Assembly (NCBI GenBank): GCA_015067585.1
Contig: SVMC01000008.1
Span: 1 to 64,000, forward strand
Direction: 5' to 3'
DNA length: 64,000 nucleotides
Source of the DNA: Oscillospiraceae bacterium
Lineage (GTDB): Bacteria; Bacillota; Clostridia; Oscillospirales; Oscillospiraceae
This document shows, piece after piece, positions 5,278-64,000 of this stretch. The translations under genes were made by a program, and so were the position numbers. Position 1 is the stretch's first letter. Every line of letters begins with the position of its first letter. The notes below the pieces were generated by a model that worked only from the letters and a program-made list of their open reading frames with translations, did no database searches and was not told the origin of the DNA.

Positions 5278-5324
5278 ATGGGAAAAGCTGCGGCCGGGTG
5301 GGTGAACATTGGTTGAAATGCATC

Positions 5325-9604: not shown

Positions 9605-9680
9605 GGGATCACCTCCATTGGTATTGTTTATCGTAATTCTACCATAGTGACATGATTTTTGTAGAGGTACACCTCATATT

Positions 9681-9784: not shown

Positions 9785-9847
9785 TTAATCAACGCCGCAG
9801 TTACGATTCGCTGCGCAGGAATGATTACTATGACGGGAGAGGTACAA

Positions 9848-40752: not shown

Positions 40753-40889
40753 GTCTACAAGGATGCACTTATTACAGCGGTAATACTATGATTCACAAGT
40801 GAAACCGTTTTATGAAAAAGACGCCGTTTTACAGCATAGCAGCTGCCCTGTGTGATTCATCCGGGACCCCTGAACCGAAAGGAGCGAGA

Positions 40890-42635: not shown

Positions 42636-42677
42636 GCCGGCTTGCGTGAAAGTCATGAAATGAAAGGAAAAATCACA

Positions 42678-44387
42678 ATGAAAAAGCATAATAAACTCAT
42701 TGCTCTGCTGCTTGTGCTTGCACTGGCCCTGTCTCTGGCAGTTCCTGTTTCTGCTGCGGCAGAAACTCAGCCCCGCAGCACCCAGGTCCTGAAGATGCGC
42801 AATGCAGAAAAGGACCCCGCCACTTCAATGATCCTGGTCTACCCCTATGCACAGACCTTCAGCGCCACTGCCATCAAAGGAAGCAGCACGCTGCTGCAGT
42901 TCAAATTGACCTACTCGCTTTATAACGATGAATTATTCTATATGTTCATCTGCCGCGGCTCTGTGGACGAGGTGCTGTCCTCTTATGAACCCGATGTGGT
43001 CGAAGAGCGTATCTATGAAGCAGACGATTTCTATAATAATGCCATTGGTGTGACCTGGACGGCAGATTCCCGCTACTCTGTGGGCGAATACACCCTGATC
43101 GGCGTGATCCTGAATGCGGACGGCAGCCTTAAGACCCAGAATTATTATGCTGTGGATCTTTATGTTGTTGACCATCATATTCCTGCCACCGGCATGGAGG
43201 TAGCAGAACTCTATATGGCCGAATTCTTTGAGGTCCCGGAAGAAATGCGTCTCGGTGAGTATATGTACATAGCCTATTCTCTGACTCCCTATGCCAATAC
43301 CTCCGACCGTACTACCAAAGTCTATACGCCCAATCCCGATGTTCTGGATGTCCGTCTGCGGGAAGGATATGTGTATGTGGTTTGCAAAGGCTTCGCCGAT
43401 ACCAGCATTACCATCACCTGCGGCAATATCAGCAAGACGATCCCCATCAAAGCCGGTCGCCCCAATCTCGAAATCCTTTGGGCTTCCGGTGAGAACACCG
43501 ATCTGTGCGTTGGTATGACAGACAAGCTTTCCCTCAAAACCACTCCTTACGGCTATCCCTTCGCAGTGAATTGGGAATCCGACAACACCGATGTAGTCAC
43601 CATTCAGAACGGCATTGTCACAGCGGTTGGCCCCGGCACGGCCAATATCAAAGTCACCTGCCTGAATGAAACCGCCACGGTTACTTATACCGTACATCCC
43701 CACGAGCTGCCGGAGGGCACTCCTGTCAGTGAGCGCACTGCCACCAAGCCTGCCATGGCAGTCGGCCCCTGCAGCTGCTGCGGCAATAAAGAGGCGGTGA
43801 ACATCTTTGAAAAGCCTGTGTTTACCGACACCGATTACAAGGCATGGTACTCCGACCATGTGGACTATGTCTATGACGAAGGCATCATGAACGGCACCGG
43901 GGAGCATAGCTTCGGTCCCGACATGGCGTTGAGCCGTGCCATGGTGGTGACGGTGCTGTACCGTGCTGCGGGCAGCCCGGAAGTCACCGGCGAGATCCCC
44001 TTCGCCGATGTGGAAGAGGGAATGTGGTACTCTGACGCGATCCTCTGGGCCTACCAGAATGAGGTAGTCAACGGTGTTGGTGACGGCAGCCGCTTTGATC
44101 CCAACGGCAATATTACCCGCGAGCAGATCGCCACGATCCTCTACCGCTACACCCAGAGCCTTGGTGTGGAGATGGCAGAGGGTGCGGACCTGAATACCTA
44201 TCCCGATGGTGCGATGGTATCCGCTTATGCCGAGGAAGGCATGGCATGGGCTGTTGGTGAGGGCTTGATTACCGGCGCTGTATCCAATGGCGTCACCACC
44301 CTCAGCCCCTGGAACACCGCCACCCGCGCTCAGTTTGCCACCATTATCTCCCGCTATCAGCAGATGTTCCCCGCCGATAGCGAATAA
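42678..44387 (+). CDS. SLH surface protein B (Big_2-like type)
   Basis: 569 residues, a paralogue of A. The ATG at 42678 begins KKHNKLIALLLVLALALSLA; the signal peptide ends near VPVSAAA. The N-terminal region repeats the VYPYAQTFSATAIKGSSTLL block. A Big_2-like domain follows (WESDNTDVVTIQNGIVTAVG), then CSCCGNKE and three SLH domains ending MFPADSE. It lies 42 bases after gene A with no terminator, so both are probably on one transcript. A GC-rich hairpin follows (44401-44426). Confidence 0.9.
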   Translation: MKKHNKLIALLLVLALALSLAVPVSAAAETQPRSTQVLKMRNAEKDPATSMILVYPYAQTFSATAIKGSSTLLQFKLTYSLYNDELFYMFICRGSVDEVLSSYEPDVVEERIYEADDFYNNAIGVTWTADSRYSVGEYTLIGVILNADGSLKTQNYYAVDLYVVDHHIPATGMEVAELYMAEFFEVPEEMRLGEYMYIAYSLTPYANTSDRTTKVYTPNPDVLDVRLREGYVYVVCKGFADTSITITCGNISKTIPIKAGRPNLEILWASGENTDLCVGMTDKLSLKTTPYGYPFAVNWESDNTDVVTIQNGIVTAVGPGTANIKVTCLNETATVTYTVHPHELPEGTPVSERTATKPAMAVGPCSCCGNKEAVNIFEKPVFTDTDYKAWYSDHVDYVYDEGIMNGTGEHSFGPDMALSRAMVVTVLYRAAGSPEVTGEIPFADVEEGMWYSDAILWAYQNEVVNGVGDGSRFDPNGNITREQIATILYRYTQSLGVEMAEGADLNTYPDGAMVSAYAEEGMAWAVGEGLITGAVSNGVTTLSPWNTATRAQFATIISRYQQMFPADSE

Positions 44388-44400
44388 TCAGTTTTCTCAA

Positions 44401-44426
44401 GGCCGGAAGGGGACACCCTTCCGGCC
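44401..44426 (+). terminator. Intergenic hairpin in the SLH array, copy 1
   Basis: GGCCGGAAGGG-GACA-CCCTTCCGGCC, a perfect 11-bp stem without a good T-run. Repeated at 46524-46549 and 48306-48331. It may reduce rather than end transcription, or protect mRNA ends. Confidence 0.6.
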
Positions 44427-44463
44427 TGCGCCTTATCTCACAAAAAACGAAAGGACCATTCCT

Positions 44464-46509
44464 ATGAAAAGAATCGTAGCCTTCCTGCTGGTACTGGCGA
44501 TGGCCTTCTCTCTGGCTGTACTTGCTGCCGCAGAGGAACCGGCGGAACCTGTCGCAAAGGCACAGCTCATCACAGAAGCCGTGTTTGCTGACCAAATCGG
44601 GTTCTCCTGCGATCAATATGGCTTTCTCGGCCAATACCACAACAAGACTCGTCCCATCTCCGTGTTTGGTGAACCGCTGACCACATGGGATGCTGTCTGG
44701 AGAAAAATGCTAAACGATGACTTGTTTGCATTGCAGCGGGGTGAATACTACGCCTTGTTCTACAGAACCGGCAAACAGCTTACCGGATTTCAATATACAG
44801 ACTTCAGGGAAATCGATGGATATATCCGAGGCGAAAAAAGCGTACGGAATTATGATTTCTTCACTGCTACAGGAAAAATGATGCCCAAGCCGATCGTACC
44901 CGAGGGCTATGTGGTGGATCGTTATCTGAAGGATGATCTGATCGTTGCGGGCTATCCCTCCAGCACGGATTCCTTTGGCAACAGGGATTATCGTTGGAAG
45001 CTGTTCCGCACAGACGGAACCTGCCTCAGCCCGGAATGGGATTCCTATGTTGGCATTGAGCGCCTGACGGAGGACCTTCTGAAGGTTTGGGACAGCTCGT
45101 ACATTTCAAACCGGGTCATGAATGAGCAGGGCGAGCTGTTGACGCCGGCTGCGGGAGACCATATCTTTACATTTGAAGACGGCAGCTTCCTGACGATGCA
45201 TCCGCTGCCGGTGAATCCTGATCTGGGATATCAAAATGTGCGGTATGTGCTCTACGATTCCGCAGCAAAGCAGCTGGGAGAATATGTGGGGACGAATGCC
45301 TACAGCATTCATGACCGCTATCTGGCGATCTATGACGAATCTACCAGGAGCCTCAAGCTGTTGGATCATGGTAAGCCGATATCGATTCCTGCAGGTGCCA
45401 TGAGCAGCGGCAGCGGTGAGATTTCCAAATACAACACCGAAGCAGGTTTTTCCTCCACACCTTTGTTCTATATCATGACCAAAGATCAGTATTACACCGT
45501 ATATGATCTGGAATGCAATGTGGTAATTCCGGAAATGTATTGCCGAAGGATGACCATTGCGGCAAATCATGTGTTGGCGGTGAATTACGACGGTGATACC
45601 GAATTGTATAATGTGAAGGGTGAAAAAGTGGCGACTTTGCCAGGCAGCGACTATCAGGGCTTTTCTGAAGGTCTTCTCTGGCATAAACAGGGCAATGCCT
45701 ATGCGATTTACAATTTGAAAGGTGAGCAGGTTACAGACTACACATATTCCTATTGCGGAGAGAGTGGCGCTTTTGGACTTGTAAATGTAAAGCGAAACGG
45801 TAAATATTTCCTGATCAATGCAGCCGGCGAGGAACAAAATTCGCAGGGTTTTGATGCTTGGGTGCGTTTTGAAAGCCATTTCGGCGACTATCAAATTGCC
45901 GGGAATTATGGCATCGTTCGCTATCTGGAGCCTGGAGAGGGCCTGTTCTGGGATGTCAAGGAGGGAGATTGGTTCTGTGACGAGGTATACTACTGCTATG
46001 AGAACGATATCCTGAACGGCACCGGTGTGGGCCGCTTCCAACCCGATGGTGTTACCACCCGCGCCATGGTGGTGACGGTGCTCTACCGCCTTGCGGGAAG
46101 CCCTGAGGTGGAAGGCGAGCTTCCCTTCACCGATGTGGAGGCCGGTCAGTGGTATTCCGACGCGGTGCTGTGGGCCAATCAGAACGAGATCGTCAACGGC
46201 GTAGGGGGTGACCGCTTCGCTCCCACTGCCAACATCACAAGAGAGCAGATTGCCACCATCCTCTACCGCTACAGCAAGTTTACCGGCATCGAAATGGCGG
46301 AAGGTGCCGATCTGACCACCTTCCCGGACAGCGGCAAAGTGGCAGACTTTGCCCTTGAGGGTATGGCATGGGCCGTGGCAGAGGGCCTGATCACCGGCAC
46401 CGTCTCCGGCGGCACCACCACCCTCTCTCCCCAGGCCAGCGCCACCCGCGCCCAGCTTGCAACCATCATTTCCCGCTATCAGCAGATGTTCCCGGCGGAT
46501 AGCGAATAA
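44464..46509 (+). CDS. SLH surface protein C (WG-repeat-like type)
   Basis: 681 residues. The ATG at 44464 follows AAAGGA; the signal peptide is KRIVAFLLVLAMAFSLAVLA. A long beta-propeller-like region holds WG/KWG-like repeats (WKLFRTDGTCLSPEWDSYVG, LYNVKGEKVATLPG, IYNLKGEQVTDYTYSYCG). Three SLH domains follow (WDVKEGDWFCDEVYYCYEND, TDVEAGQWYSDAVLW...), ending MFPADSE. It lacks the Big_2 domain. Type C pairs with type B just as E pairs with D. Confidence 0.9.
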   Translation: MKRIVAFLLVLAMAFSLAVLAAAEEPAEPVAKAQLITEAVFADQIGFSCDQYGFLGQYHNKTRPISVFGEPLTTWDAVWRKMLNDDLFALQRGEYYALFYRTGKQLTGFQYTDFREIDGYIRGEKSVRNYDFFTATGKMMPKPIVPEGYVVDRYLKDDLIVAGYPSSTDSFGNRDYRWKLFRTDGTCLSPEWDSYVGIERLTEDLLKVWDSSYISNRVMNEQGELLTPAAGDHIFTFEDGSFLTMHPLPVNPDLGYQNVRYVLYDSAAKQLGEYVGTNAYSIHDRYLAIYDESTRSLKLLDHGKPISIPAGAMSSGSGEISKYNTEAGFSSTPLFYIMTKDQYYTVYDLECNVVIPEMYCRRMTIAANHVLAVNYDGDTELYNVKGEKVATLPGSDYQGFSEGLLWHKQGNAYAIYNLKGEQVTDYTYSYCGESGAFGLVNVKRNGKYFLINAAGEEQNSQGFDAWVRFESHFGDYQIAGNYGIVRYLEPGEGLFWDVKEGDWFCDEVYYCYENDILNGTGVGRFQPDGVTTRAMVVTVLYRLAGSPEVEGELPFTDVEAGQWYSDAVLWANQNEIVNGVGGDRFAPTANITREQIATILYRYSKFTGIEMAEGADLTTFPDSGKVADFALEGMAWAVAEGLITGTVSGGTTTLSPQASATRAQLATIISRYQQMFPADSE

Positions 46510-46523
46510 AGCAGTTTTCTCAA

Positions 46524-46549
46524 GGCCGGAAGGGGACACCCTTCCGGCC
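46524..46549 (+). terminator. Intergenic hairpin in the SLH array, copy 2
   Basis: Same 26-bp sequence as 44401-44426; the flanking bases (GCAGTTTTCTCAA before it) are also shared, pointing to segmental duplication. Confidence 0.6.
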
Positions 46550-46581
46550 TGCGCGTATGAAATCAAATAAAAGGAGAAAGC

Positions 46582-48291
46582 ATGATGAAACATTTCAAAA
46601 AAATCCTTGCCATTGTGTTGGCGCTTGCGCTGGCTCTGTCTTTGGCAGTTCCCGCCGCCGCAACTGCGGAGCCGAAGCTTCCCATCGCCCAGCTCCTGAA
46701 GATGAAGGATGCGGGGAAGAATCCCGTAACTCCGGATACCCTTGTGTATCCCTATTCCCAGACCTTTGGCGCTACCGCCATCAAGGGAAACTCTGTGCTT
46801 CTGCAGTTCAAGCTGGCACAGAACAGACCCAGTACCGACCTGTTTGGCTTGATCATTCTCCGCGGTTCTGTCGAGGAAATGGCAAATTCCGGAGAGCTTG
46901 AAGTGGTGGAAGAGCGCCTTTATAAAATGAGCGATTTCCAAAACGGAGCTTTGGGCATGACATGGACGGCGGATTCCCGCTATCGCGTGGGTGAATACAC
47001 CTTAGTAGGCATGCTGCTGGACAAGAATGAAGAGGTCTACGAGCAGGATTATTATTTTGTCGATCTTTATGTGGTCGACCGGAATATTCCGGCGACTCGT
47101 CTGGGGGTTGCGTATGTTAAGGACGGCAACTATGATATGCTTCCCGGCGAGATCCTCCTGAACCAGACTTGCTGCTTTGAACCGTATCTGGAACCCTATG
47201 CCAACACCACCGAACGCAAAATCACGGTTACCAGTTCCAAACCTGAGATTGCATCGGTCACGATGGATGCGGGCTATGCCTATGTGACCGCGAAAGGTAT
47301 TGGACGCACGATCATCACCTTCACCTGCGGCAATCTGAAGAATTCCTTTGAACTGCTTTGCGGTGCAGATGCTGTGGTCGGTTTATCCTATACACATAAT
47401 CCGAATCTGTGTGTTGGTATGACAGATAAGCCAACCGTTAATTTTACGCCGAATCATCTGCCGATTTCCATTGATTGGTATTCCCAGAACCCTGAGGTTG
47501 TTACTGTCAAGGATGGTGTTGTCACAGCCGTCGGCCCCGGTTGGGGAGAAATTATTATTGCCGGTTTTGGATATGGTAATAATGCAATTCAATATACCGT
47601 CACCGACCATGATCTTCCGGAAGATGCTCCCGTCAGTGAGCGCACCGCCACCAAGCCTGCCATGCAGGTGGGCCATTGCAGCCTCTGTGGTCAGGATGAC
47701 GCGGTGAATATCATCGAAAAGGCGATCTTCACTGACACCGATTATAAGGCATGGTACTCTGACTATGTGGACTATGTGTATGATAACGGCATCATGAACG
47801 GCTCCGGCGCCACCACCTTTGCGCCCGACCGTACCATGACCCGTGCGGAACTGGTCACCGTGCTCTACCGCATTGCGGGCAGCCCGGAAGTGACATATGA
47901 TGCTGCCTTTACGGATGTTCCCGCCGGTCAGTGGTATTCCGATGCCGTGACATGGGCAGCACAGAACCAGATCGTCAATGGCGTTGGCAATGGCCGCTTT
48001 GCTCCCACCAATGTCATTACCCGGGAGCAGGTCGCAACCATCCTCTATCGCTACACCCAGACCCTTGGTGTGGAGATGAGAGAGGGCGCAGACCTGAGTG
48101 CCTATCCCGATTGCGGCAGCGTATCCGGCTTCGCGGTTGAGGGCATGGAATGGGCCGTAGCCGAGGGCCTCATCACCGGTGTTTCCTCCGGCGGCAAGAC
48201 CACCCTCGCCCCCAAGAACAGCGCCACCCGCGCCCAGTTCGCCACCATCATCTCCCGCTATCAGCAGATGTTCCCGGCGGATAGCGAATAA
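46582..48291 (+). CDS. SLH surface protein D (Big_2-like type)
   Basis: 569 residues, the closest match to B in length and plan. The ATG (46582, or 46585) follows AAAGGAG; the signal peptide ends near VPAAATA. It has VYPYSQTFGATAIKGNSVLL, a Big_2-like domain (WYSQNPEVVTVKDGVVTAVG), HCSLCGQDD and three SLH domains ending MFPADSE. Its first SLH differs from the others (TTFAPDRTMTRAELVTVLYR), so the SLH blocks are not all homogenised. Confidence 0.9.
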   Translation: MMKHFKKILAIVLALALALSLAVPAAATAEPKLPIAQLLKMKDAGKNPVTPDTLVYPYSQTFGATAIKGNSVLLQFKLAQNRPSTDLFGLIILRGSVEEMANSGELEVVEERLYKMSDFQNGALGMTWTADSRYRVGEYTLVGMLLDKNEEVYEQDYYFVDLYVVDRNIPATRLGVAYVKDGNYDMLPGEILLNQTCCFEPYLEPYANTTERKITVTSSKPEIASVTMDAGYAYVTAKGIGRTIITFTCGNLKNSFELLCGADAVVGLSYTHNPNLCVGMTDKPTVNFTPNHLPISIDWYSQNPEVVTVKDGVVTAVGPGWGEIIIAGFGYGNNAIQYTVTDHDLPEDAPVSERTATKPAMQVGHCSLCGQDDAVNIIEKAIFTDTDYKAWYSDYVDYVYDNGIMNGSGATTFAPDRTMTRAELVTVLYRIAGSPEVTYDAAFTDVPAGQWYSDAVTWAAQNQIVNGVGNGRFAPTNVITREQVATILYRYTQTLGVEMREGADLSAYPDCGSVSGFAVEGMEWAVAEGLITGVSSGGKTTLAPKNSATRAQFATIISRYQQMFPADSE

Positions 48292-48305
48292 AGCAGTTTT
48301 CTCAA

Positions 48306-48331
48306 GGCCGGAAGGGAACACCCTTCCGGCC
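48306..48331 (+). terminator. Intergenic hairpin in the SLH array, copy 3
   Basis: Same stem as copies 1 and 2, with one loop change (GAACA instead of GGACA). Confidence 0.6.
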
Positions 48332-48366
48332 TGCGCTTTATCAAATCAAATGGAAGGAGAATTTCC

Positions 48367-50424
48367 ATGAAAAAACTCTTAGCTTTTCTGCTGGTACTGG
48401 CGATGGTCTTCTCTCTGGCCCTTCCGGTTGCCGCAGAGGAAGCGCCGGAGGAACCGGCTCCCGCCACCGCACAGGTGATCACCGATGCGATATATGATTG
48501 CCATTCCTTTGGATTTCTAAATGATTCTTATGGTCTTATCAATCAATATACCAACTACAGAGCCATTTCCGTGTTCGGAGAACCGCTGACTGATTGGGGT
48601 GGTGCAAGCCGGGCGCTGACAGAGGATGTTTTCGCCATGGCGCTGCCTGAAATTGCGATCTATGCCCTGTTCCACAGATCCGGCAGACAGCTTACCGGCT
48701 ATATGTACAGCAAATTTGAGGTATTTGAGGACTATATCCGGGCGAAAAAGGGCGAAGTGCTCTATGATTTCTTCACGCTGGACGGAAGATCGCTCCCGAA
48801 GCCGGTAATACCGAATGGCTATGTGACCGGGAAGTATCTGGGCGACGGTCTTGTTGTGGCCGGTGATCCTACCCTCAGACCCGATGGGTACCCCGGTTAT
48901 AGCTGGGCACTGTTCACCATGGACGGCAAACGCATTACCCCGGAGGGCAAGCTTTACAGGGGTATTGAGCGCCTGACAGACGATCTGTTGATCCTAAGCG
49001 AATCGAAAGGGGGCAGCGGGATCATCAATGAGCAGGGAGAATGGGTATATCCCGTGGGAGGCAGTTACAGCCGATATATTCTCGATACCGGCGAATTCAT
49101 TATTTCCACTATGGTAAATACGGAAGATCCGACTTTATTCAGTGGGAATGAGTACATTTGTTACAATGCAAAGGGAGAGCAGCTCTGGTCCTATATCGGT
49201 GCGGGAGCTGAGGTCCTCTTTGGTCGCTATCTGGCGATCGAGACCAGAGACGAAAAAAATGTGGTGCTGATGGATGGCAGCGGCCCGGTGGAGATCCCGG
49301 AAGAAACCGCCGGCATTGGTGCGGAGGGCTTCGGAATCGGCAACATCCTCATGGATGCACTGCGGGAAAAACAGATTCCTACCCCAGTGTTCTTTACCTA
49401 CGGCACAGATAAACGCTGCACCTTCTATGATTTGGAGGGCAATGTGGTGATCCCTGCCACAACCTGCAAGTATTTGTCCATTGGCTGCGGCCATGTGATG
49501 TTTGTCAATGAGGAGGGGGATACGGAGCTGTATACCGCCGCCGGCGAAAAGGTGGCGACCCTGCCGGGGGACGGCTATGATGGTTTGTCCAGCGGTCTGA
49601 TTTGGCACCAGCGGGGTAATGCCTATGCCATCTACAATCTGCAGGGCGAACAGGTCACGGAATACACCTATGCCGCCTGCAGATACAGCGGCGCTGCCAT
49701 CGGCCTTGTGAATGTTCAGAGAAACGGCAAATGGTTCCTGGTCAATGCCGAAGGTGAAGAACAGAACAAGCAAGGCTTTGATCAACCCATCGAATTTATG
49801 GGCCATTTCTGCGGCTATCAGATCGCCGGGAATTGGGGCATCATCCGCTATCTGGAGCCGGGCGAGGGCCTGTTCTGGGATGTGAAGGAAGGGGAATGGT
49901 TCTGTGACGAGGTATACTACTGCTATGAGAACGATATCCTGAACGGCACCGGTGTGGGCCGCTTCCAGCCCAATGGGGTCACCACCCGCGCCATGGTGGT
50001 GACGGTGCTCTACCGCCTTGCGGGCAGCCCCGAGGTGGAGGGCGAGCTTCCCTTTACGGATGTGGAGACCGGCCAGTGGTATTCTGACGCTGTGCTGTGG
50101 GCAAGTCAGAACGACATCGTGAATGGTGTAGGCAATGACCGTTTTGCGCCTACCGCCAATATCACCCGCGAGCAGATCGCCACCATTCTCTACCGTTACA
50201 GCAAGTTCATCGGCATCGAAATGGCGGAAGGTGCCGACCTGACTGCATTCCCGGACAGCGGCAAAGTGGCAGACTTTGCCCTTGAGGGCATGGCATGGGC
50301 CGTAGCCGAGGGCCTGATCACCGGCACCGTCTCCGGCGGCACCACCACCCTCTCCCCCCAAGCCAGCGCCACCCGCGCCCAGCTCGCAACCATTATTTCC
50401 CGCTATCAGCAGATGTTCCAATGA
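48367..50424 (+). CDS. SLH surface protein E (WG-repeat-like type)
   Basis: 685 residues, paralogue of C. ATG 48367 follows GGAAGGAG; the signal peptide is KKLLAFLLVLAMVFSLALPV. WG-like repeats (WALFTMDGKRITPEGKLYRG, LYTAAGEKVATLPGDGYDG, IYNLQGEQVTEYTYAACR) are followed by three SLH domains nearly identical to those of C. It ends YQQMFQ, without the PADSE tail of B, C and D. A true terminator follows, closing the array. Confidence 0.9.
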   Translation: MKKLLAFLLVLAMVFSLALPVAAEEAPEEPAPATAQVITDAIYDCHSFGFLNDSYGLINQYTNYRAISVFGEPLTDWGGASRALTEDVFAMALPEIAIYALFHRSGRQLTGYMYSKFEVFEDYIRAKKGEVLYDFFTLDGRSLPKPVIPNGYVTGKYLGDGLVVAGDPTLRPDGYPGYSWALFTMDGKRITPEGKLYRGIERLTDDLLILSESKGGSGIINEQGEWVYPVGGSYSRYILDTGEFIISTMVNTEDPTLFSGNEYICYNAKGEQLWSYIGAGAEVLFGRYLAIETRDEKNVVLMDGSGPVEIPEETAGIGAEGFGIGNILMDALREKQIPTPVFFTYGTDKRCTFYDLEGNVVIPATTCKYLSIGCGHVMFVNEEGDTELYTAAGEKVATLPGDGYDGLSSGLIWHQRGNAYAIYNLQGEQVTEYTYAACRYSGAAIGLVNVQRNGKWFLVNAEGEEQNKQGFDQPIEFMGHFCGYQIAGNWGIIRYLEPGEGLFWDVKEGEWFCDEVYYCYENDILNGTGVGRFQPNGVTTRAMVVTVLYRLAGSPEVEGELPFTDVETGQWYSDAVLWASQNDIVNGVGNDRFAPTANITREQIATILYRYSKFIGIEMAEGADLTAFPDSGKVADFALEGMAWAVAEGLITGTVSGGTTTLSPQASATRAQLATIISRYQQMFQ

Positions 50425-55722: not shown

Positions 55723-56097
55723 CTAATCCGCCCTATCCTCCCGCAGGAATGCCTCCCGCAGTTTTTCAAGCCCCCGCTTTTCGATGCGCGATACATAGGA
55801 GCGGCTGATGCCGCAGAGGGTGGCGACTTCTCTCTGGGGCAGGGGAGGGGTACCGCCGAGGCCGTAGCGGAGCTGCAGCACACGGCGCTCTCTTGGGGAG
55901 AGGCATTCGCGCAAATAGCGGTACATCTGGGCATACTGCTCCTGACAGCTCAGATCCTCCAAAAGATCCGTGTCATCGCACAGCACATCCATCAGGGACA
56001 ATGCGCTGCTGTCCCGTCCGGTGTCGATGTCGTCAGACAAAGACACATCCTGCGCGCTCTTTTTCTGGCTGCGGAAATGCATCAGGATCTCATTTGC
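55723..56097 (-). pseudogene. sigK: C-terminal half of sporulation sigma factor SigK (interrupted gene, skin-type)
   Basis: About 124 residues in frame, with no start of their own. The segment begins ANEILMHFRSQKKSAQDVSL and continues with SigK-specific text (DDIDTGRD, LMDVLCDD) into sigma region 4: LSPRERRVLQLRYGL and CGISRSYVSRIEKRGLEKLR. ISRSYVSRIEK is typical of SigK rather than SigE. SigK is about 235 residues, so roughly the first 110 are missing. The break lies at the NEILMH position where the skin element interrupts sigK in Bacillus and Clostridioides. A serine recombinase gene abuts it on the same strand. It is probably functional after excision in the mother cell and so not a decayed gene. 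The N-terminal half is not in the window. Confidence 0.88.
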
Positions 56098-56130
56098 TAT
56101 CCTCCCCCCAACGACTTTTAGAAGCGTTGG
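56090..56130 (-). other. Putative recombination (att) site of the sigK intervening element
   Basis: The minus strand reads GGATAGCAAATGAGATC here. AATGA (56094-56090) is the core reported for the Bacillus skin site. 56108-56130 is a quasi-palindrome (CCAACG..CGTTGG with CTT/AAG inside) that could be a recombinase arm. The recombinase stop codon (56092-56090) is part of the core, and its last eight bases are shared with the sigK segment. Confidence 0.7.
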
Positions 56131-57919
56131 AGGGTTTCGTTTTTCCCAGGCCGCTATTTTCCTCCTCAAATTCCTCGTAATCGACATTTGCAAAGGCTTC
56201 AAGGGGTTCTTCTTCGCCACCTTCTTCATCCATGTGAGCTAATCTATCATCCATATCGGGGAATTCAATATCACTTTCATCCGCACCAAACAGAACCACA
56301 TGGGCGTTCACGCCATCCCAAATCACCTTGCGGACAACGGTTCTGATCGCCGATCTCTTTTCCTCGATGGACATATCATCGATACTGGTACGGAACATGG
56401 ACAGCATCTGACGTAGCAGATCAAACTCAGCATCGGTGAGCGAATTGACATTAACCAAACCTTCCAGTTCATGGATGCGGTTCTCCACATCCCGGTTCAT
56501 CTCGGACAGTTCTTCAATGCGCTTCAGCACACGGGGCTTGGCGATGGAGTCACCAACCATGCCCAGAGAATCGATCAAACCATTGATCGTCTTTTCGTTT
56601 GCTTCATGCTCTGCCCGCAGATCTTCCAATTGCCGCTCATACTGTTCCCGCTTGCCGGTGTAGAACTCCCGGCTCTTTGCAAGCTGAGAAATAAAGCTGC
56701 TGTCATGGTCGGTCAAAGATTTGATCTGCTCAATGATCGCCGCATCCAGGATGTTGCCGTTGGCATTGCGGCGGTTGCATCGCTCCCGCTTGCTCCGCTC
56801 TTTCATCTTGCATACATAGGTATAAATAACTTCACCGGAAGCGGTATTGCGCTGAGACAGTTTGGGGTACATTCTCTCGCCACAGGAGCAATACACCAAA
56901 CCGGTCAGCAAGGCTTCATTATTCCGGGGCTTACGATATGCCTTGGATTTATTTCTATCCAGGGATTCCTGCACCTTGATCCACTGTTTGGAAGGAACAA
57001 CACCGGCATGCTTACCAATGGCAACGATCCACTCACTGACCGACAGAAGCTGCGTGGTTCTTCCCTTTTCCTGGTTCGTACGGTTATATGCCATGATACC
57101 ACAACTGCCGTCAAAAGCTTCCTTCGGGAAGCAGACTTCCGCTTCCTTTTCTACAAAGTAGTTGTAGGCATCTTCATCTGCCACCATATAGACAGGATTC
57201 TGCAAAATTGCCTTGATGGCAAAGCGGGTAAAATCCTTTCCCTGTTTGGTCTTGATCCTTTGCCGCAGAAGCTCTGCTTCCACAGCAGTCAGGGAATCTG
57301 TTTCCATGTAAAGATCAAAAATCATTTTGGGAATTTCAATTTCCTCGGGAATCGGGATCAACTTGTAAGATTTTCTTTCTTTGCCGTCAATTGTGATCTT
57401 ACTGACAGAACCTGATTTGAAACCGGTGGGTGTATTACCACCCAGCCAGCGACCAGTCTTTGCCAGTTCGTGCATATTATCCCGGATACGCTCAGCGATG
57501 GTTTCACGCTCCAGCTGGGAGAAGACAGATATGATGAACATCATGGCTCTGCCCATAGGGGTACTGGTGTCGAACTGCTCCTTAATGGATACGAAGGCTA
57601 CATCCAGCTTGGTCAGTTCATCGATCAAGCCAGTAAAATCGCTGATATTACGGCTGATTCTGTCCAGGCGATAGACTACGATTGCCTTGAACTTATGCTT
57701 GCGCACTTCCTCCATCATCCGTTTGAAATCCGGTCTTTGCAGGTTGCCGCCGGAGAATCCTTCATCCTCAAAGACAACGCAGCGATCCACATATTCCTCA
57801 CCAAACATATTGCGGACATACTCTTTGCAAAGCTCCACCTGATTGCCGATACTTTCACCCTTGCCGGTGAATTTGGATTTCCGGGAGTATATGGCAATCT
57901 GTTCCTCATTTCGGCCCAT
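56090..57919 (-). CDS. Large serine recombinase, SpoIVCA-like sigK-element excisionase/integrase
   Basis: 609 residues. The N-terminal resolvase domain has catalytic Ser12 (IAIYSRKSKFTG), YRLDRISRNISDF and QLERETIAERIRDNM. A recombinase domain follows (GRWLGGNTPTGFKSG), then a zinc ribbon (VYCSCGERMYP...CKMKERSKRERC) and a long coiled coil (about 440-540). GGGAGG lies eight bases before the ATG. Such enzymes cut and rejoin att sites. Its end lies in the core of the broken sigK gene, so it most likely excises the element during sporulation. The C-terminal tail is acidic, then ends RWGEDSK within the att sequence. GC content is clearly lower than in the 1-54 kb region. Confidence 0.93.
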   Translation of the reverse strand: MGRNEEQIAIYSRKSKFTGKGESIGNQVELCKEYVRNMFGEEYVDRCVVFEDEGFSGGNLQRPDFKRMMEEVRKHKFKAIVVYRLDRISRNISDFTGLIDELTKLDVAFVSIKEQFDTSTPMGRAMMFIISVFSQLERETIAERIRDNMHELAKTGRWLGGNTPTGFKSGSVSKITIDGKERKSYKLIPIPEEIEIPKMIFDLYMETDSLTAVEAELLRQRIKTKQGKDFTRFAIKAILQNPVYMVADEDAYNYFVEKEAEVCFPKEAFDGSCGIMAYNRTNQEKGRTTQLLSVSEWIVAIGKHAGVVPSKQWIKVQESLDRNKSKAYRKPRNNEALLTGLVYCSCGERMYPKLSQRNTASGEVIYTYVCKMKERSKRERCNRRNANGNILDAAIIEQIKSLTDHDSSFISQLAKSREFYTGKREQYERQLEDLRAEHEANEKTINGLIDSLGMVGDSIAKPRVLKRIEELSEMNRDVENRIHELEGLVNVNSLTDAEFDLLRQMLSMFRTSIDDMSIEEKRSAIRTVVRKVIWDGVNAHVVLFGADESDIEFPDMDDRLAHMDEEGGEEEPLEAFANVDYEEFEEENSGLGKTKPSNASKSRWGEDSK

Positions 57920-57959
57920 TTCTTTCGCCTCCCTCTTGATATGTGATGTTGTTTAATCT

Positions 57960-57988
57960 ATCATATCATAGCGTACCAAATTAGTAAA
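57960..57988 (-). promoter_or_regulatory. Possible promoter of the recombinase gene
   Basis: TTTACT (57988-57983), 17 bp, TATGAT (57965-57960). A SigA-like pair; I could not recognise a clear SigE -10/-35 as expected for a mother-cell recombinase. Confidence 0.45.
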
Positions 57989-58120
57989 CAGGGAGATTGC
58001 GATGATCGCAAGTTTGTCCCCAGAGATGGGTGACACCTATCCCCTGAGAGATGATGGCATATATGCCCCAGTCTGTATCTCCCGGAAATATGCGCTGGAA
58101 CTACTGATGATTCTGAAATA

Positions 58121-58169
58121 CAAAAACCGCTGTAGCTTTCACCCCATAAAGGATGTAAGTTGCAGCGGT
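58121..58169 (-). terminator. Terminator of the molybdenum-cofactor operon
   Basis: ACCGCTG..CAGCGGT stem with GCTT/AAG inside and a TTTTTG tail on the minus strand, 16 bases past the mogA-moaE stop. It separates the operon from the recombinase. Confidence 0.8.
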
Positions 58170-58184
58170 ATATTATTTACGATG

Positions 58185-59087
58185 TCAGCAGGATAATTCT
58201 GTTTCGGACACACATTGATTTTTCAGTGTGCCGACAAGGTAATCGAGTCCCGCAACAACGTGGGGGCGAATATCGCCGCCGATCAGGACGAACATAATAT
58301 CATCACCGACCTTCAGTTCTCCCTCATTGAGCCAAACACGGACATAATGAATTCCGTCCTGTCTGTAAGTATCAGCTACAGCCGCTTCCACTTTTTCCTT
58401 GTCGTAGGAAAAGATCATGCCGGTCACAGGCGCAGCATCTTTTGTTCCCTCACGAACCATTGCTTTTGCAGTCCCACGGACAACACCGTTGTGGGTCAGA
58501 TACATACCGACTTTACTTGCAGAAGAATCAGCCTTAGCCTCCCGCAGCCATTCGTCCATGGAAGGGGCCTTTTTCTTGTGATGATGATGGTGAGGTTCCC
58601 CGCAGTCGGCGGAGCCGTTGCCCAACAGCATCTCTAAACCATGCTCCACAGGGTCGATCACTGCCATCAGATTTTCCTTTGCCGCCTTTTCGCTGCCGGG
58701 AAGATTGATGATTAATGTTCTGCCTCGAATACCAGCCTCGGAACGAGATAAACATCCCTTGGGAGTGATGCGCAGGCTCTCTGCCCGCATTGCTTCCGGA
58801 ATACCGGCTGTGCGGCGCTCAATGACCTCAAGAGTTGCTTCGGGGGTGATGTCTCTGGGCGAAAATCCGGTGCCGCCGGTGGTGAGAACGAGATTGATAT
58901 TCATATCATCGGCGCACTTAATAAGCTCCGATTTAATCTGCTCTTTTTCATCAGGGATGATGCCGGTATAGGTAACATTCCAACCTTTGCTCTCTAAAAT
59001 GGCACGGATGGCGGGGCCGCTGGTGTCAACACGCTCTCCCCGAGCACCTTTGTCGCTGATGGTAATGACTGCCGCAGTATAGCTCAT
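58185..59087 (-). CDS. MogA-MoaE fusion, molybdenum cofactor biosynthesis
   Basis: 300 residues. Residues 1-155 are a MogA/MoaB domain (AAVITISDKGARGERVDTSG, LVLTTGGTGFSPRDITPEAT), which adenylylates molybdopterin. A linker with five His and three Lys follows (EPHHHHHKKKAPS). The C-terminal ~115 residues (VGMYLTHNGVVRGTAKAMVR, YVRVWLNEGELKVGDDIMFV) match the clostridial MoaE-type molybdopterin synthase large subunit. It is the last gene of the operon, overlapping the MobB-MoaC gene by ATGA. The His run may bind metal. Confidence 0.85.
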   Translation of the reverse strand: MSYTAAVITISDKGARGERVDTSGPAIRAILESKGWNVTYTGIIPDEKEQIKSELIKCADDMNINLVLTTGGTGFSPRDITPEATLEVIERRTAGIPEAMRAESLRITPKGCLSRSEAGIRGRTLIINLPGSEKAAKENLMAVIDPVEHGLEMLLGNGSADCGEPHHHHHKKKAPSMDEWLREAKADSSASKVGMYLTHNGVVRGTAKAMVREGTKDAAPVTGMIFSYDKEKVEAAVADTYRQDGIHYVRVWLNEGELKVGDDIMFVLIGGDIRPHVVAGLDYLVGTLKNQCVSETELSC

Positions 59088-60064
59088 ACATTTTCCTCCC
59101 TCTGAAAATCTCCGTGGACGCCGCCAGTCTTTTGAAGCAGGCGAATGTCGCTGATGACCATATCCTTCTGGACGGCTTTACACATGTCGTAGACCGTCAG
59201 AGCAGCTGTGGACACAGCCGTCAGCGCCTCCATTTCCACCCCGGTTCGTCCATCGCAGGACACAGACGCTTCAATTTCAACGCTGCATCTGTTTTCGTCC
59301 AAACGCAGGGACAGATTGATACCATCGATCAGGATGGGGTGGCACATGGGGATCAGATCAGGGGTCCGCTTCGCTCCCATAACGCCGGCAATTTGAGCTA
59401 CCGTCAGAACATCGCCTTTTTTCATTCCGCCGCTGCGGATCAATTCAAAAGTATTTTTGTTGACCAGCACTCGTGCTGCGGCAACAGCTGTACGGCGGGA
59501 CTCGGGTTTCTCTCCCACGTCCACCATCTTGGCACGACCTTCTTCATTGAAGTGGGTAAAATCGTTGGCATTTTTCACGGCGGTTCTCTCCAAAATAAAA
59601 TTAGCAATAGGGGAAATGTCTTCCAAGCCAAAGCAGGGAATGTCTGTATCCATTTCCATGTCAGTCACCAAGGCAATGAAATGCTCCGGTTCAAAAGGGA
59701 AACCCTTTCCGGTAGCAGCACGGGCGATGCCGATCTGGGGCAGATTTTTATTCTTGTAACCCTCCACCAAAATCAGGTCCACGCCGTGTACCATGCCCAA
59801 CAGCTGCTCCAGACTTAGTTCACCATATTCGACATAAGCAGTCTTCTCGGTTGAACTGATCATGGTAATATCAGCTCCCGCTTTGGAAAATCGCCACGAG
59901 TCTTTTCCTTCATGGTCAATCTCAAACTTATGGCCATCGTGTTTAATGACTGCCAGCCGCAGTCCACGATTTTTCAGTTCGCGAACCAGTTTCTCAATGA
60001 GTGTGGTTTTGCCTGTGCCGGAATAGGCTGCAAAGGCAATGACAGGAATATTATTCATGTTCAC
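59084..60064 (-). CDS. MobB-MoaC fusion, molybdenum cofactor biosynthesis
   Basis: 326 residues. The N-terminal MobB-like GTPase (about 1-165) has the P-loop AAYSGTGKTTLIEKL and VIKHDGHKFEIDHEGKDSWR; MobB assists nucleotide attachment to the cofactor. The C-terminal MoaC (about 167-326) has FTHFNEEGRAKMVDVGEKPE, GAKRTPDLIPMCHPI and CDGRTGVEMEALTAVS. MoaC makes cyclic pyranopterin monophosphate together with MoaA. The domain order puts an early and a late step in one chain. Overlaps moaA and mogA-moaE by four bases each. Confidence 0.92.
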   Translation of the reverse strand: MNMNNIPVIAFAAYSGTGKTTLIEKLVRELKNRGLRLAVIKHDGHKFEIDHEGKDSWRFSKAGADITMISSTEKTAYVEYGELSLEQLLGMVHGVDLILVEGYKNKNLPQIGIARAATGKGFPFEPEHFIALVTDMEMDTDIPCFGLEDISPIANFILERTAVKNANDFTHFNEEGRAKMVDVGEKPESRRTAVAAARVLVNKNTFELIRSGGMKKGDVLTVAQIAGVMGAKRTPDLIPMCHPILIDGINLSLRLDENRCSVEIEASVSCDGRTGVEMEALTAVSTAALTVYDMCKAVQKDMVISDIRLLQKTGGVHGDFQREENV

Positions 60065-61014
60065 CCTCCGATTTTGTTCATACTGCGCTTCGCTCCGCTG
60101 CGTTCAGTGGCGGATAACGGCGCATGACATGCAGGCTTGGACAAAATTGTTCGTTCCATCTCTCTGCGCATACCATCGAAATTCATTCCCTTGATGGAGT
60201 ATTCCTGATCAGAATGGAGACAGGGTTTCAGCTTTCCATCAGCGGTCAAGCGAATTCGGTTACAGGCAGCGCAGAAATAGCTGCTGACTGCACGGATAAG
60301 TCCGACATTTCCTTTGGCATCAGGCAGACGATACAGCTTGGCAACGCCGTCATTCTGTTCCGCTTCCGTCAGTTCGGGCAACGCAGCAAGCACGGCTGAA
60401 CCCGGTACATAGGCCTGCTGTCCAAATTCTTCGTTCTCTGTCATGGGCATCAGCTCGATAAAACGCACATCGGCGGGATAGCGTCTGGACAGGTCGGCAA
60501 GAGCGGGAATTTCATCATCGTTGAACCCGCCGATCAAAACGGCGTTGATCTTCAAATGCTGAAAGCCTGCTTCCAGTGCCGACTCAATTCCTTTGATTGC
60601 CTGCTCCAATGTGCCAACGCGGGTGATATAGGCATATTTCTCAGGATTTAAGGTGTCCAGACTGATGTTTAATCTGTCCACACCTGCGGCCTTGAGATCT
60701 TTTGCCATCTGCGGCAGTAAGATACCGTTGGTAGTTACGCAGACTTCATTGATTCCTTCGACACCAGCACTTCGCTCACAGAGGGATAGGATGTTCTTTT
60801 TTACGAGCGGTTCGCCGCCGGTCAATCTCAGTTTGCGGATCCCCAGCGATGCCGCCGCCTCTACAGCCATGATCATCTCATCTTCCGTGAGCATATCCAG
60901 ATGGCTTTTCTTGCAGATGCCGTCTGCGGGCATGCAGTATCGGCAGCGCAGATTGCAGCGGTCTGTCACCGAAAGACGCAGATAATATATTTCTCTTCCG
61001 TATGTATCAACCAT
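60061..61014 (-). CDS. moaA: GTP 3',8-cyclase MoaA (radical SAM)
   Basis: 317 residues. The N-terminal radical SAM cluster is CNLRCRYC (C-x3-C-x2-C), with LRLTGGEPLVKKNI and NISLDTLNPEKY. The second cluster is FCAACNRIRLTADGKLKPCL, and the required C-terminal GG ends the protein (MNKIGG). It starts molybdopterin synthesis from GTP. The ATG at 61014 overlaps the end of the upstream gene, seven bases after GGAAGA; longer in-frame starts are less likely. Confidence 0.93.
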   Translation of the reverse strand: MVDTYGREIYYLRLSVTDRCNLRCRYCMPADGICKKSHLDMLTEDEMIMAVEAAASLGIRKLRLTGGEPLVKKNILSLCERSAGVEGINEVCVTTNGILLPQMAKDLKAAGVDRLNISLDTLNPEKYAYITRVGTLEQAIKGIESALEAGFQHLKINAVLIGGFNDDEIPALADLSRRYPADVRFIELMPMTENEEFGQQAYVPGSAVLAALPELTEAEQNDGVAKLYRLPDAKGNVGLIRAVSSYFCAACNRIRLTADGKLKPCLHSDQEYSIKGMNFDGMRREMERTILSKPACHAPLSATERSGAKRSMNKIGG

Positions 61015-61015
61015 A

Positions 61016-62032
61016 TCAATATCTTCCAAAGGTACAGTTGGGCCAGTGGCAAGGCTTGCAGAGCTGGCAAAGGCCGCCATCGCCCAAATTGATCAGTTCT
61101 TCCTTAGTCAGCTTGTCCCCAGTGAAAATTTGAGGAAGCAGCACATCAAAAATCGTGGTAGGCAAACTGATCGCTGCTCCGGGAACACCCAAAATCGCAA
61201 CCTCGCCCAAATAGGCAACCAGAGTCATATTTCCCGGCTGAGAGGGAACGCCATGGCTGACCACATCCGCACCCAATACACGGATTGCGCTCGGCGTCAA
61301 ATCATCGGGATCAACCGACATACCCCCGGTGAAAATCAGAAAATCTGCACCGTTTTCAAGGTGTTTCTTAGCGGCACACACGATCATATCCAGATCATCG
61401 TCACAAATGGAGACCCCTACGATTTCAGAGGGATATGCCTCCATTTTCCTGCGAACGACCGGCTCAAATTTATCTTTAATGCGTCCATGGTAGACTTCGC
61501 TGCCGGTGATGACAACACCAATTTTTCGGTGCTGATAAGGCCGCAGGTCAAAGAGTTTTTTCCCCTTGCAGAGTTTTTCGGCTTCAATGATCTGCTCCTC
61601 CTGCGTAACCAGCGGGACGATTCGCATAGAGGCAAGTCGAGTTCCTTTTTCCACGGGATAGTGATCGGGATAGGAAGCGATGGTGATATCTCCGATGGAA
61701 TTGAGTTTTCTCTGAAGCGCTGTGTTTACACGGAACATACCACGTTCCTCTGCCATGAGCAACACCTTTCCCTCAGAAGGTTCCGTGTAGTAAGCGCCTT
61801 TCACAGGAGCCATGGCCGCCATACGGCGGGCTGCATCTTCCTCGTGGATTTCCCCGGCGTTTTCCTCCCAGACAAATACAGTCTGCTTGCCGTAGTCCAG
61901 CAACTTAGGAATATCTTCTTCACGAATGATGTGCCCACGTTTGAAGGCGGCACCCTTGAAGCCATCATACATAGCCGTTACATCATGGCACAGTTCCATT
62001 CCTACAGCATTTTCCACTCTGATCTTCTTCAT
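61016..62032 (-). CDS. MoeA/MogA-like molybdopterin-binding protein with C-terminal Cys cluster
   Basis: 338 residues. The central part holds a molybdopterin-binding (MoCF) domain: IGVVITGSEVYHGRIKDKFE, LIFTGGMSVDPDDLTPSAIR and GVPGAAISLPTTIFDVLLP. The end (GGLCQLCKPCHWPNCTFGRY) has four Cys that look like a metal or Fe-S site; this tail is common in clostridial homologues. It may be specific to a certain class of molybdoenzyme, for example molybdenum hydroxylases, but that is inference. Overlaps both neighbours. Confidence 0.82.
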   Translation of the reverse strand: MKKIRVENAVGMELCHDVTAMYDGFKGAAFKRGHIIREEDIPKLLDYGKQTVFVWEENAGEIHEEDAARRMAAMAPVKGAYYTEPSEGKVLLMAEERGMFRVNTALQRKLNSIGDITIASYPDHYPVEKGTRLASMRIVPLVTQEEQIIEAEKLCKGKKLFDLRPYQHRKIGVVITGSEVYHGRIKDKFEPVVRRKMEAYPSEIVGVSICDDDLDMIVCAAKKHLENGADFLIFTGGMSVDPDDLTPSAIRVLGADVVSHGVPSQPGNMTLVAYLGEVAILGVPGAAISLPTTIFDVLLPQIFTGDKLTKEELINLGDGGLCQLCKPCHWPNCTFGRY

Positions 62033-63249
62033 AGTAAAAATCCTTTCAAAACTGTTCCTGCTTCCAGCGGTCCGCTTCCTGCGGGAACCACAGCCATTAC
62101 ATTACATCCAATGGTGCTGCTGAGAACGATATTTCCCTGATCTTTGGGAAGTTTCATGCAAACGACACCGTCCTCTAATTCCAGTCTGCCTCTCAGAAAA
62201 CGTGTTTTAGGGCTTTTCTTGGTAAAACCGTTGGAAAGCGTTACTTTGATTTCCTGTGGTAGATATTCATTTTGGCCTGTCAGTTTTCTCAATGCAGGCA
62301 ATGCAACGGCATAAAAATTTGTAAGAGAGGATGCAGGATTACCGGACAGCCCACAAATCAGCTTCCCCGCCTTTACTCCATAGGCACAGGCCATGCCGGG
62401 TTTCATATCCACACCCCGGAACAACATCTCCACGCCGGATGCTCCCATGGCCGCAGGTGTCAGGTCGTAGTCGCCTACGGATACACCGCCAGTAGTCACA
62501 ACGGCATCGCATTCCGAAAGTCCCTCGTTCAGCCGTGCGGAAATGTCTGCAACGCTGTCACCTGCAATCCCAAGATACACCGGTTCACACCCAATTTGCT
62601 TCAGGGCTGCCTCCAGCATATAGCGGTTGGAGTTTCTGATTTTTCCGGCACCGGGAGCCGCATCGGCCTCCACCAACTCACTGCCGGTGGAAAGCAGCGC
62701 AACCTTTGGCTTTCTGTATACCAAGGGCATTGCTTCTCCCTGTGCTGCCAGCGTACCGGCCAGACCAGGGTCGACTACAGTTCCGGACCTGGCGAGAACC
62801 GCGCCTTTGCTGATATCCTCGCCGGTGCGTACAATATTGCTTCCGGACTTTACAGGAGCAAACAGTGTAACGGTTTCATCGGTGAAAACAGTTTTTTCAT
62901 ACATGATCACCGCATCGGCGACCTTGGGAATAGGCGCTCCGGTAAGAACTTTTGCAGCAGTACCTGCCAAAACTTCTTTGGTCGGAACAGCCCCTGCCGG
63001 GATCTCCTCCAGAATCTGAAGTGTCACCGGATGCTCTTTCGAGGCCAATACCGTATCCTCTGCACGAACTGCATAGCCGTCATAAGGAGAGCGGTCAAAG
63101 GCCGGTACATTTTCCTGTGCAATCAGATCCTGCGCCAGAACCCGTCCACCGCATTCGGACAAGGGTACCTGCTCCATGCCTACTGCCGAAACTTGGGACA
63201 GCAGCAGATCACATGCACGCTCAAAACAAGGATTTTCAAGCATTTTCAT
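62029..63249 (-). CDS. moeA: Molybdopterin molybdotransferase MoeA
   Basis: 406 residues with the MoeA blocks: VPAFDRSPYDGYAVRAEDTV, VLTGAPIPKVADAVIMYE, LLSTGSELVEADAAPGAGKI, VVTTGGVSVGDYD and LICGLSGNPASSLTNF. It inserts molybdate into adenylylated molybdopterin. Its start overlaps modC by 14 bases, tying molybdate import to its use. Confidence 0.94.
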   Translation of the reverse strand: MKMLENPCFERACDLLLSQVSAVGMEQVPLSECGGRVLAQDLIAQENVPAFDRSPYDGYAVRAEDTVLASKEHPVTLQILEEIPAGAVPTKEVLAGTAAKVLTGAPIPKVADAVIMYEKTVFTDETVTLFAPVKSGSNIVRTGEDISKGAVLARSGTVVDPGLAGTLAAQGEAMPLVYRKPKVALLSTGSELVEADAAPGAGKIRNSNRYMLEAALKQIGCEPVYLGIAGDSVADISARLNEGLSECDAVVTTGGVSVGDYDLTPAAMGASGVEMLFRGVDMKPGMACAYGVKAGKLICGLSGNPASSLTNFYAVALPALRKLTGQNEYLPQEIKVTLSNGFTKKSPKTRFLRGRLELEDGVVCMKLPKDQGNIVLSSTIGCNVMAVVPAGSGPLEAGTVLKGFLL

Positions 63250-64000
63250 TGTCCTCCAATAACAAAAGTGAAGCTGTAGGCAAACGCATATACAGTTTGT
63301 CTGCCTGATAGTTTTTCCATGTTTCTTTTTCTGTTTCCCATCCGATCGGCATCGTGTTTTCCGTGCCGTCAGGGCGAAGCATAACCGTTATGGAAAAGGG
63401 ATTTTCAATCACATCCACAACTTTGAACAGAGTTGCGTTATCGCCCTTTCCCGGGCATATATCATGCATACGAATGCCTACATAACGGGCTGCTTTGGAA
63501 AGTCCGTTCACGGCCAGTTCCATACCCCATTCGGCAGCATAAATACGATTTGGCCCGATGCACTCAATTGCAGAAATGTTTTTGCAGCCGGTAAGCATGG
63601 CACCTGTTCTCGTTTGCGGTGATGCAAATATTGCCTTTTTTTCACCAAAAGCTTCGATCCTGCCATTGCTCATCACGGCAATGCTATCCGCCATGCGGTA
63701 TACCTCATCCCGGTCATGGGAAACCAAAAGAACTGTTTTCCCAAAGGAACGAATCACGCTGCGAACCTCCTGCTCCAACCGAAAGCGCAGGTGGCTATCC
63801 AGAGCAGAAAACGGTTCGTCTAACAGTAGAATGTGTGGATCAGAAACCAGAATACGGGCCAAAGCCACTCTCTGCTGCTGTCCGCCGGAGAGCTGATAGG
63901 GGTAATGATTTGCCAGCTCCGCAAGGCCAAAACTGTCCACGACCTGCCGAACAAAGTTTTCTCTCTTATCCTTGTTCTTTTCCCGCTTTGCTCCCGTGCG
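63236..64000 (-). CDS. modC: Molybdate ABC transporter ATP-binding protein (5' end outside window)
   Basis: About 255 C-terminal residues, open to the window edge. The ABC signature is LSGGQQQRVALARILVS, Walker B HILLLDEPFSALDSHLRFRL and H-loop LLVSHDRDEVYRMAD. A C-terminal regulatory (TOBE-like) domain follows (about the last 100 residues). Position before moeA makes molybdate (or tungstate) the likely substrate. The Walker A and probably modA/modB lie to the right of the window. Confidence 0.85.
   Translation of the reverse strand, partial: RTGAKREKNKDKRENFVRQVVDSFGLAELANHYPYQLSGGQQQRVALARILVSDPHILLLDEPFSALDSHLRFRLEQEVRSVIRSFGKTVLLVSHDRDEVYRMADSIAVMSNGRIEAFGEKKAIFASPQTRTGAMLTGCKNISAIECIGPNRIYAAEWGMELAVNGLSKAARYVGIRMHDICPGKGDNATLFKVVDVIENPFSITVMLRPDGTENTMPIGWETEKETWKNYQADKLYMRLPTASLLLLEDNENA

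Follow-up and report, generated by a model that had tools for sequence, protein, structure and literature searches.

How can full-length sigma-K be made in a bacterium if one stretch of its DNA has only the end of the sigK gene, with a large serine recombinase gene directly beside it? The question is raised by the window, that is, the whole stretch of 64,000 nucleotides analyzed here (Oscillospiraceae bacterium, GenBank assembly GCA_015067585.1, contig SVMC01000008.1, positions 1 to 64,000). A first-pass annotation had proposed that sigK is cut into two halves by a skin-type element. The reading favored here, with a probability of roughly 0.78, is that sigK of this genome is split by two elements of the skin type, both with a predicted large serine recombinase of their own and both needing excision in the mother cell. 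As judged from the sequences, insertions into sigK occur at three places in the family: site A at codon 66, site B at codon 111 and site C at codon ~213. A separate recombinase family and distinct inverted-repeat junctions go with each site. The features of the window on which the analysis is built are the following.

55723 to 56094, minus strand: sigK 3′ exon, from about codon 111 to the stop (TIGR02846 profile and sequence)
56090 to 57919, minus strand: the site-B element's large serine recombinase, complete, 609 aa (Pfam; homologues of relatives in the same place)
56092 to 56104, minus strand: right half of the attachment site for the site-B element, with arm GAGGATAGC and AAAT core (sequence; motif also in relatives)
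57960 to 57988, minus strand: sigma-A-like promoter, TTTACT, 17 bases, TATGAT, recognized by eye (upstream alignment)
58002 to 58087, plus strand: remnant of a divergent tnpV gene (blastn homology to relatives ends at 58087)
58185 to 59087, minus strand: MoaB/MogA-type molybdenum cofactor protein with a C-terminal extension, likely cargo (NCBIfam)
59084 to 60064, minus strand: MobB-MoaC fusion, likely cargo (NCBIfam, both parts above cut-off)
60061 to 61080, minus strand: MoaA, likely cargo (NCBIfam TIGR02666, above cut-off)
61016 to 62032, minus strand: molybdopterin-binding protein, likely cargo (NCBIfam TIGR00177, below cut-off, E 2.8e-15)
62029 to 63249, minus strand: MoeA-like protein, likely cargo (NCBIfam)
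63236 to 64000, minus strand, running on until the contig stops at 64,379: ABC transporter ATPase, likely cargo (NCBIfam)

The reading of the sigK fragment given by the first-pass annotation was borne out in its main points. The TIGR02846 profile (227 positions) is matched by 55723-56097 (minus strand) from about 108 to 226 only, which leaves the window with the C-terminal part of SigK alone. The exon opens as stated with A-N-E-I, encoded by GCA-AAT-GAG-ATC with AATGA at 56094-56090, and it keeps the normal C-terminal end, so that site C is not split here and the breaks lie at A and B only. The abutting large serine recombinase is also as described, and its Resolvase, Recombinase and Zn_ribbon_recom domains are all above the Pfam cut-offs. 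Its TGA stop (56092-56090) comes from the exon's own AATGA, hence the end of the gene and the attachment core overlap, and the right half-site pattern of site B is matched at 56093-56104. An element-borne recombinase thus stands beside the sigK junction at site B in the window itself.

Two further supports had been offered for the element. The lower GC rightwards is a modest drop, 47-52% at 56-64 kb vs 50-57% at 50-55 kb, with 44% at 55-56 kb. Of the sporulation genes named, Spo0A (9821-10633) is above its cut-off and SpoIIID (4956-5309, minus strand) falls slightly under it, with 108.0 bits against 111.5.

The position of the junction was followed in relatives. Among 29 of their sigK loci, 23 have the SigK start joined in frame on the upstream side, four open with ANE (site B) and two with KKYY (site A). 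Close homologues of the window recombinase adjoin the sigK 3′ exon at the same site-B codon in 20/22 cases, the exceptions being L064 and L056, the latter having the recombinase with no sigK end exon after it. Matching 5′ parts are present on the same contig in several site-B relatives. Cultured organisms with a site-B element include Anaerovorax odorimutans DSM 5092 and Holdemania sp. Marseille-P2844. The proposal that an element of the skin type sits at the CIE|NEIL site together with a recombinase of its own is thus well supported. The left junction reads approximately GTN-GAA-AAT-GCTATCCTC and the right one GAGGATAGC-AAAT-GA, and inverted-repeat half-sites around a short common core were found at site A as well as at site B. 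The site-B arms are complementary at 7.3/9 positions (mean of 12 genomes), and arms paired across genomes reach 6.9, almost equally well, which makes the complementarity a family trait and not proof of genome-specific pairs. The lowest value, 2/9, belongs to G159, whose site-B recombinase is 41% identical to that of the window. No left site-B junction was found in the window genome by pattern search, and no relative of the site-B recombinase among the IMG/VR contigs.

Similarity to the site-B elements of relatives stops at 58087 (blastn), the shared part being the recombinase, its promoter and the first part of tnpV. A TATAAT-like -10 is kept in 8/10 aligned upstream regions of the recombinase and is absent in L057 and L069. 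The neighboring tnpV is complete in L050 and truncated in the window, where the remnant frame has no Pfam match. Beyond it, where phage genes would be looked for in a prophage-like skin element, the six likely cargo proteins at 58185-64000 comprise cofactor enzymes and the ABC ATPase. The five cofactor proteins have no match (E <= 1e-5) in the 42 loci compared, searched up to 10 kb on each side, and the corresponding place in L050 is taken by restriction-modification-like genes. From its place, the molybdenum-cofactor operon seems to be part of the site-B element of the window, which would then be at least 8.3 kb in size. The earlier claim that everything rightwards of ~56.09 kb is element DNA is likely as regards the DNA in hand, the far end being outside the assembly. 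No directionality factor was identified in the portion of the site-B element held by the window.

The model of two halves did not survive the search for the other half. It had placed the N-terminal half further along the same replicon, beyond 64 kb, and had expected it to end at AATGA, naming its absence as the outcome that would tell against the model. The contig ends at 64,379, and within the limits of the assembly (1.82 Mb, 66 contigs, 81.6% complete) there is no N-terminal SigK part that ends at AATGA. The sigK start lies on another contig (C33:5828-6028, minus strand) and reads MVTETLWLL...LRLVAHIMKKV-stop; past about codon 66 it is no longer in the frame of sigK, and it does not reach AATGA at codon 111. 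Since this only start piece stops at another codon than AATGA, the two-half model was rejected. The ~45 codons in between, that is, the middle exon from 66 to 111, were not found in the assembly, so the start and end pieces do not meet. The first-pass annotation had also named an intact sigK elsewhere as an outcome that would overturn it, and none was found in the assembly. One match on contig C44 was tried as intact sigK and rejected as SigE, being above the SigE cut-offs.

The break point on C33 coincides exactly with the site-A junction, and two different junctions in one genome point to more than one element in its sigK. The main competing account is that only the site-B element interrupts the gene, the C33 start being decayed or misbinned and the real start-plus-middle piece missing from the assembly. 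Genomes with site B alone do exist (G070, G025, G024), the assembly is incomplete, the start piece of G071 is decayed, and the end of the start exon of G366 appears on two contigs. However, SigK of the same-genus genome G001, which is intact, shares 84% identity with the C33 piece, and the DNA similarity continues for 48 bp ahead of the start codon; the 175 bp past the junction of the C33 piece are element DNA common to G064 (81% over 301 bp, blastn); and a search of the window genome gave no second start piece. We leave this single-element account a small but real chance.

On C33, beyond the shared 175 bp, there is an AAA/DUF4143 ATPase gene resembling genes in L343, L346 and L294, and further on a flavoprotein reductase beside a gene that is presumably peroxiredoxin-like, a desulfoferrodoxin and an MFS transporter, all of them likely part of the site-A element. 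The synteny around the intact sigK of G001 gave no usable link between C33 and C5, and no site-A recombinase was found in the window assembly. In the explanation proposed, sigK would be broken after about codon 66 on C33 and would resume at codon 111 in the window, the gaps being filled by two elements, and the middle exon and a site-A recombinase would exist elsewhere in the genome. Crossover would occur at AA in site A and at AAT in site B. During sporulation the mother cell would excise both elements, both excisions being needed since two elements are present, after which full-length sigma-K would be made. Control may lie with a directionality factor rather than with the recombinase, the promoter of which resembles a standard sigma-A promoter, as in C. 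difficile.

Site A was characterized in relatives. Its recombinase has 554-557 aa, is 23% identical to the site-B one of the window and carries the same three Pfam domains. It directly adjoins a sigK start or middle exon on 18/18 contigs, these having been fetched because they carry it. The start side reads approximately AT(G/A)-AA|N-AAG-G and the middle side TTTAA|G-AA(A/G)-TA(C/T). With the register centered on AA, the arms are complementary at 13.0/20 positions vs 4.9-7.6 at five other shifts (11 genomes), and cross-genome pairs reach 11.4/20. Site A occurs alone in two one-contig genomes, G416 (start at 906249-906043, the rest at 883804-883307) and G207. In-frame stops interrupt the site-A recombinase of G337 (two) and that of G162 (one), and 13 relatives of this recombinase were found among IMG/VR contigs. 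In surveys of 400 genomes, recombinase matches at E <= 1e-120 were obtained in 71 and 35, counts that include distant relatives not necessarily located in sigK, and a sigK start-piece match was obtained in 349, a survey figure that is not a per-site frequency.

Breaks at both A and B were found in 15 genomes, the window genome included, a set drawn from genomes chosen for short frames or recombinases and thus not a frequency. All three pieces are present in seven of them (G159, G139, G334, G201, G413, G080, G062). The middle exon has both junctions, with another piece missing or decayed, in G066, G071, G115, G296 and G366, and start and end only were found in the window genome (G000), G064 and G244. 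The start and end exons of G064 are 44 kb apart on one contig, with no middle exon found between them. The complete order is seen on contig C1 of G159 (minus strand), where the start exon (ending at 34849) is followed by the site-A recombinase (28084-26399), the middle exon (26435-26298), the site-B recombinase (20238-18604) and the end exon (18560-18198). On contig C29 of G139 the order runs along the plus strand, with exons at 20618-20814 (start), 32030-32167 (middle) and 39075-39380 (end). The site-A recombinase of G139 points towards the start exon, and the frame of its site-B recombinase covers only ~335 codons, so that the latter may be defective. Part of the order is retained on one contig in G334 and G066 (middle and end) and in G080 and G115 (start and middle), the middle exon of G334 lying between two recombinase genes.

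The third site was recognized from 16 distinct sigK-like pieces which leave the frame right after SYVSR, 10 continuing with TAATGTAA and the others with its variants. A tail exon (RIEK-ALEKL-like) with the inverse arm before it was found in L052, G126, G283, G116, G148, G333 and G296. The recombinase belongs to a third family (530 aa in L052, the same three domains), and stands directly before the tail exon in all of these except L052, where it is at the side of the end exon. On the single contig of G126 (plus strand), sigK lies in three exons, start-plus-middle at 1133687-1134019, end at 1144950-1145258 and tail at 1167014-1167067. Between the first two stands the site-B recombinase (1143200-1144870), and between the last two the third recombinase (1165333-1166910). 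One contig of G283 combines sites A and C. Several separate elements in one gene are thus present on single contigs of G159, G139, G126 and G283. G139, broken at A and B, has an end exon that stops at the site-C junction, and in G296 the start, middle and tail pieces lie apart; the tail exon of G139 and the end exon of G296 were not found. The site-C pattern with two mismatches matched 190/400 genomes and its reversed control also matched often, for which reason it was used only where it meets a sigK piece. No Rfam match was obtained at site C in three loci at gathering thresholds.

If the elements are removed precisely, the pieces should give a working frame, and this also bears on the possibility that sigK is dead in the lineage and the pieces are insertion relics in a non-sporulating bacterium. 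Damaged parts among the relatives would fit such decay (the start of G071, the site-B recombinase of G139, the site-A recombinase of G337). However, once the pieces were joined at the inferred crossovers, an open SigK frame of 225-235 aa resulted in 5/5 genomes (G080, G062, G201, G413, G334), and the joined frame was also open in G159, up to site C in G139 and across B and C in G126. Frames are therefore open in 8/8 genomes joined, and the joining restores sigK in the relatives; one extra codon in the G080 and G126 joins is attributed to the joining offset. Between split exons of different genomes, dN/dS is 0.05-0.40 in 10/12 comparisons, dS being saturated in the other 2/12 and high in several more, and the closest three-piece pair, G062/G080, gives 0.09 for the start exon and 0.05 for the middle exon. 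Constraint thus appears to act still on the split gene. The start, end and recombinase frames of the window genome are all intact and both Spo0A and SigE are present, which together make a dead sigK improbable. That the three-piece pattern is an artefact of assembly or binning is hardly credible, since, although the window genome and many relatives are drafts with pieces often close to contig ends, identical junction sequences recur across independent assemblies, the whole order is found on single contigs (G159, G139), and one-contig genomes carry site A (G416, G207) or sites B and C (G126).

The split by two elements may be one case of a wider arrangement, for and against which we hold the balance to be about even. 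In this arrangement sigK of the family would have up to three independent DNA locks, with elements at one, at two or at all three of the sites (the last in G139 and G296). Sigma-K would then be the output of an AND-gate of two or three mother-cell excisions, and the gene would serve as a shared landing platform with several bays for cargo such as the molybdenum-cofactor operon. Skin elements have been debated as passengers in a safe landing site or as regulators of sigma-K timing, and a family whose sigK has none, one, two or three elements, with a separate recombinase for each, offers a natural experiment for this debate and for the coordination of several excisions. The data are also relevant to annotation, as gene callers may overlook a sigK that is divided into three or four short pieces, and its owner may be misjudged as to spore formation. 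Candidate recombinase/att-site pairs are provided by the three recombinase families, whose junctions can be read from the sequence.

Among known systems, the closest is skin(Cd) of C. difficile. As described in the available parts of PMC5025042, it is likewise an element in sigK with a large serine recombinase immediately upstream of the 3′ part and with inverted repeats at attL/attR. The recombinase, CD1231, is made constitutively, and a directionality factor, CD1234, restricts excision to the mother cell; the sigma-A-like promoter found here fits such a constitutive recombinase by analogy. It differs in being one element at one site and in that CD1234 is known there, and the likeness to CD1231 drawn here is one of description. 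The skin element of B. subtilis, in the accessible portions of PMC5025042 and PMC13141910, shares the location in sigK, the serine recombinase, the removal in the mother cell and a short core, but it is single, 48 kb in size, prophage-like and at a site other than that of C. difficile. The first-pass annotation had taken AATGA to be the junction in both Bacillus and Clostridioides; since the same portions of PMC5025042 put the two elements at different sigK sites, AATGA cannot be the junction of both. The likeness of sites A-C to these junctions, as drawn here, is one of kind.

Integration into sigK is also described for Clostridium tetani and Alicyclobacillus (PMC5553647, PMC13141910, as far as their available text goes), but these are prophages, one per sigK. 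In Bacillus cereus ATCC10987 the sporulation gene gerE contains gin, a serine-recombinase element that is excised during sporulation and is free of phage genes, which are thus no requirement for this wider kind of element; it has three recombinase genes, but is one element at one site (PMC5595907, in the part available). In the literature covered, from which most subscription journals are absent and where several articles are available in part, no sigK with more than one element was found. For genes with several elements the precedent is in heterocyst-forming cyanobacteria, where the accessible part of PMC4874684 gives several excisable elements in 10/87 interrupted genes and up to four in one nifD; these are mainly nitrogen fixation genes, neither sporulation genes nor sigK. 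With cyanobacterial nifD as the precedent for multi-element genes, what is new here is a sporulation sigma factor gene in three pieces and, probably, in four.

The large serine recombinase of the element inserted at codon 111 of sigK (site B) takes its stop codon from the sigK attachment core (AAATGA, window 56090-56094), and thus the last gene of the element terminates within the host gene. A divergent tnpV gene adjoins the site-B recombinase in L050, a locus from a relative (9541-10077), and in the window tnpV (58002-58087) is cut short at the point where the cofactor operon starts. The tnpV product is possibly a directionality factor or a regulator. For the cargo of the site-B element, L050 is the closest relative among those examined, and it carries the following set, which looks defence-like.

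Site-B element cargo of L050
1140-8138: ResIII helicase, two N6/N4 methylase pieces, FRG domain, Beta protein

At codon 66 (site A), the cargo of another relative (G080, L124:13933-17605) resembles an ABC transporter protein pair, as judged from the translations.

The recombinase gene was also found at the upstream boundary, head-on to the exon, for site A in three genomes (G032:C36, G031:C60 and G139:C29) and for site B in one (G334:C8), as if the elements may occur in both orientations. A third insertion site, with its own recombinase family, lies in sigK after SYVS at codon ~213; it is unoccupied in the window genome and was located in the following loci.

Loci with the third sigK site (codon ~213)
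G126:C1:1133687-1167067
G283:C23
L052:1724-7500

Irregular sigK loci were also observed. The genome G064 has the start and end exons on one contig (C16:28657-73626, L131-L133) with 44 kb between them and no middle exon there, which may reflect misassembly, loss or rearrangement. In G071, a decayed start is joined to a short stretch of middle exon followed by a stop (C58, L127:17611-17830), and the real middle exon is on a separate contig, C97. The locus L056 (8680-11761) has a start-plus-middle exon and then the site-B recombinase, whose end has no adjoining sigK end exon; that exon is on a separate contig, C25.

Among the neighbouring genes, window 40812-50424 holds a row of several large related proteins, which match one gene adjoining the intact sigK of a same-genus genome (G001) and presumably resemble S-layer homology proteins. 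A few kb off the split sigK of G032 (L137:8110-10350), there are frames rich in repeated SIHAPLAGCD-like peptides, which we take to resemble a translated CRISPR array.
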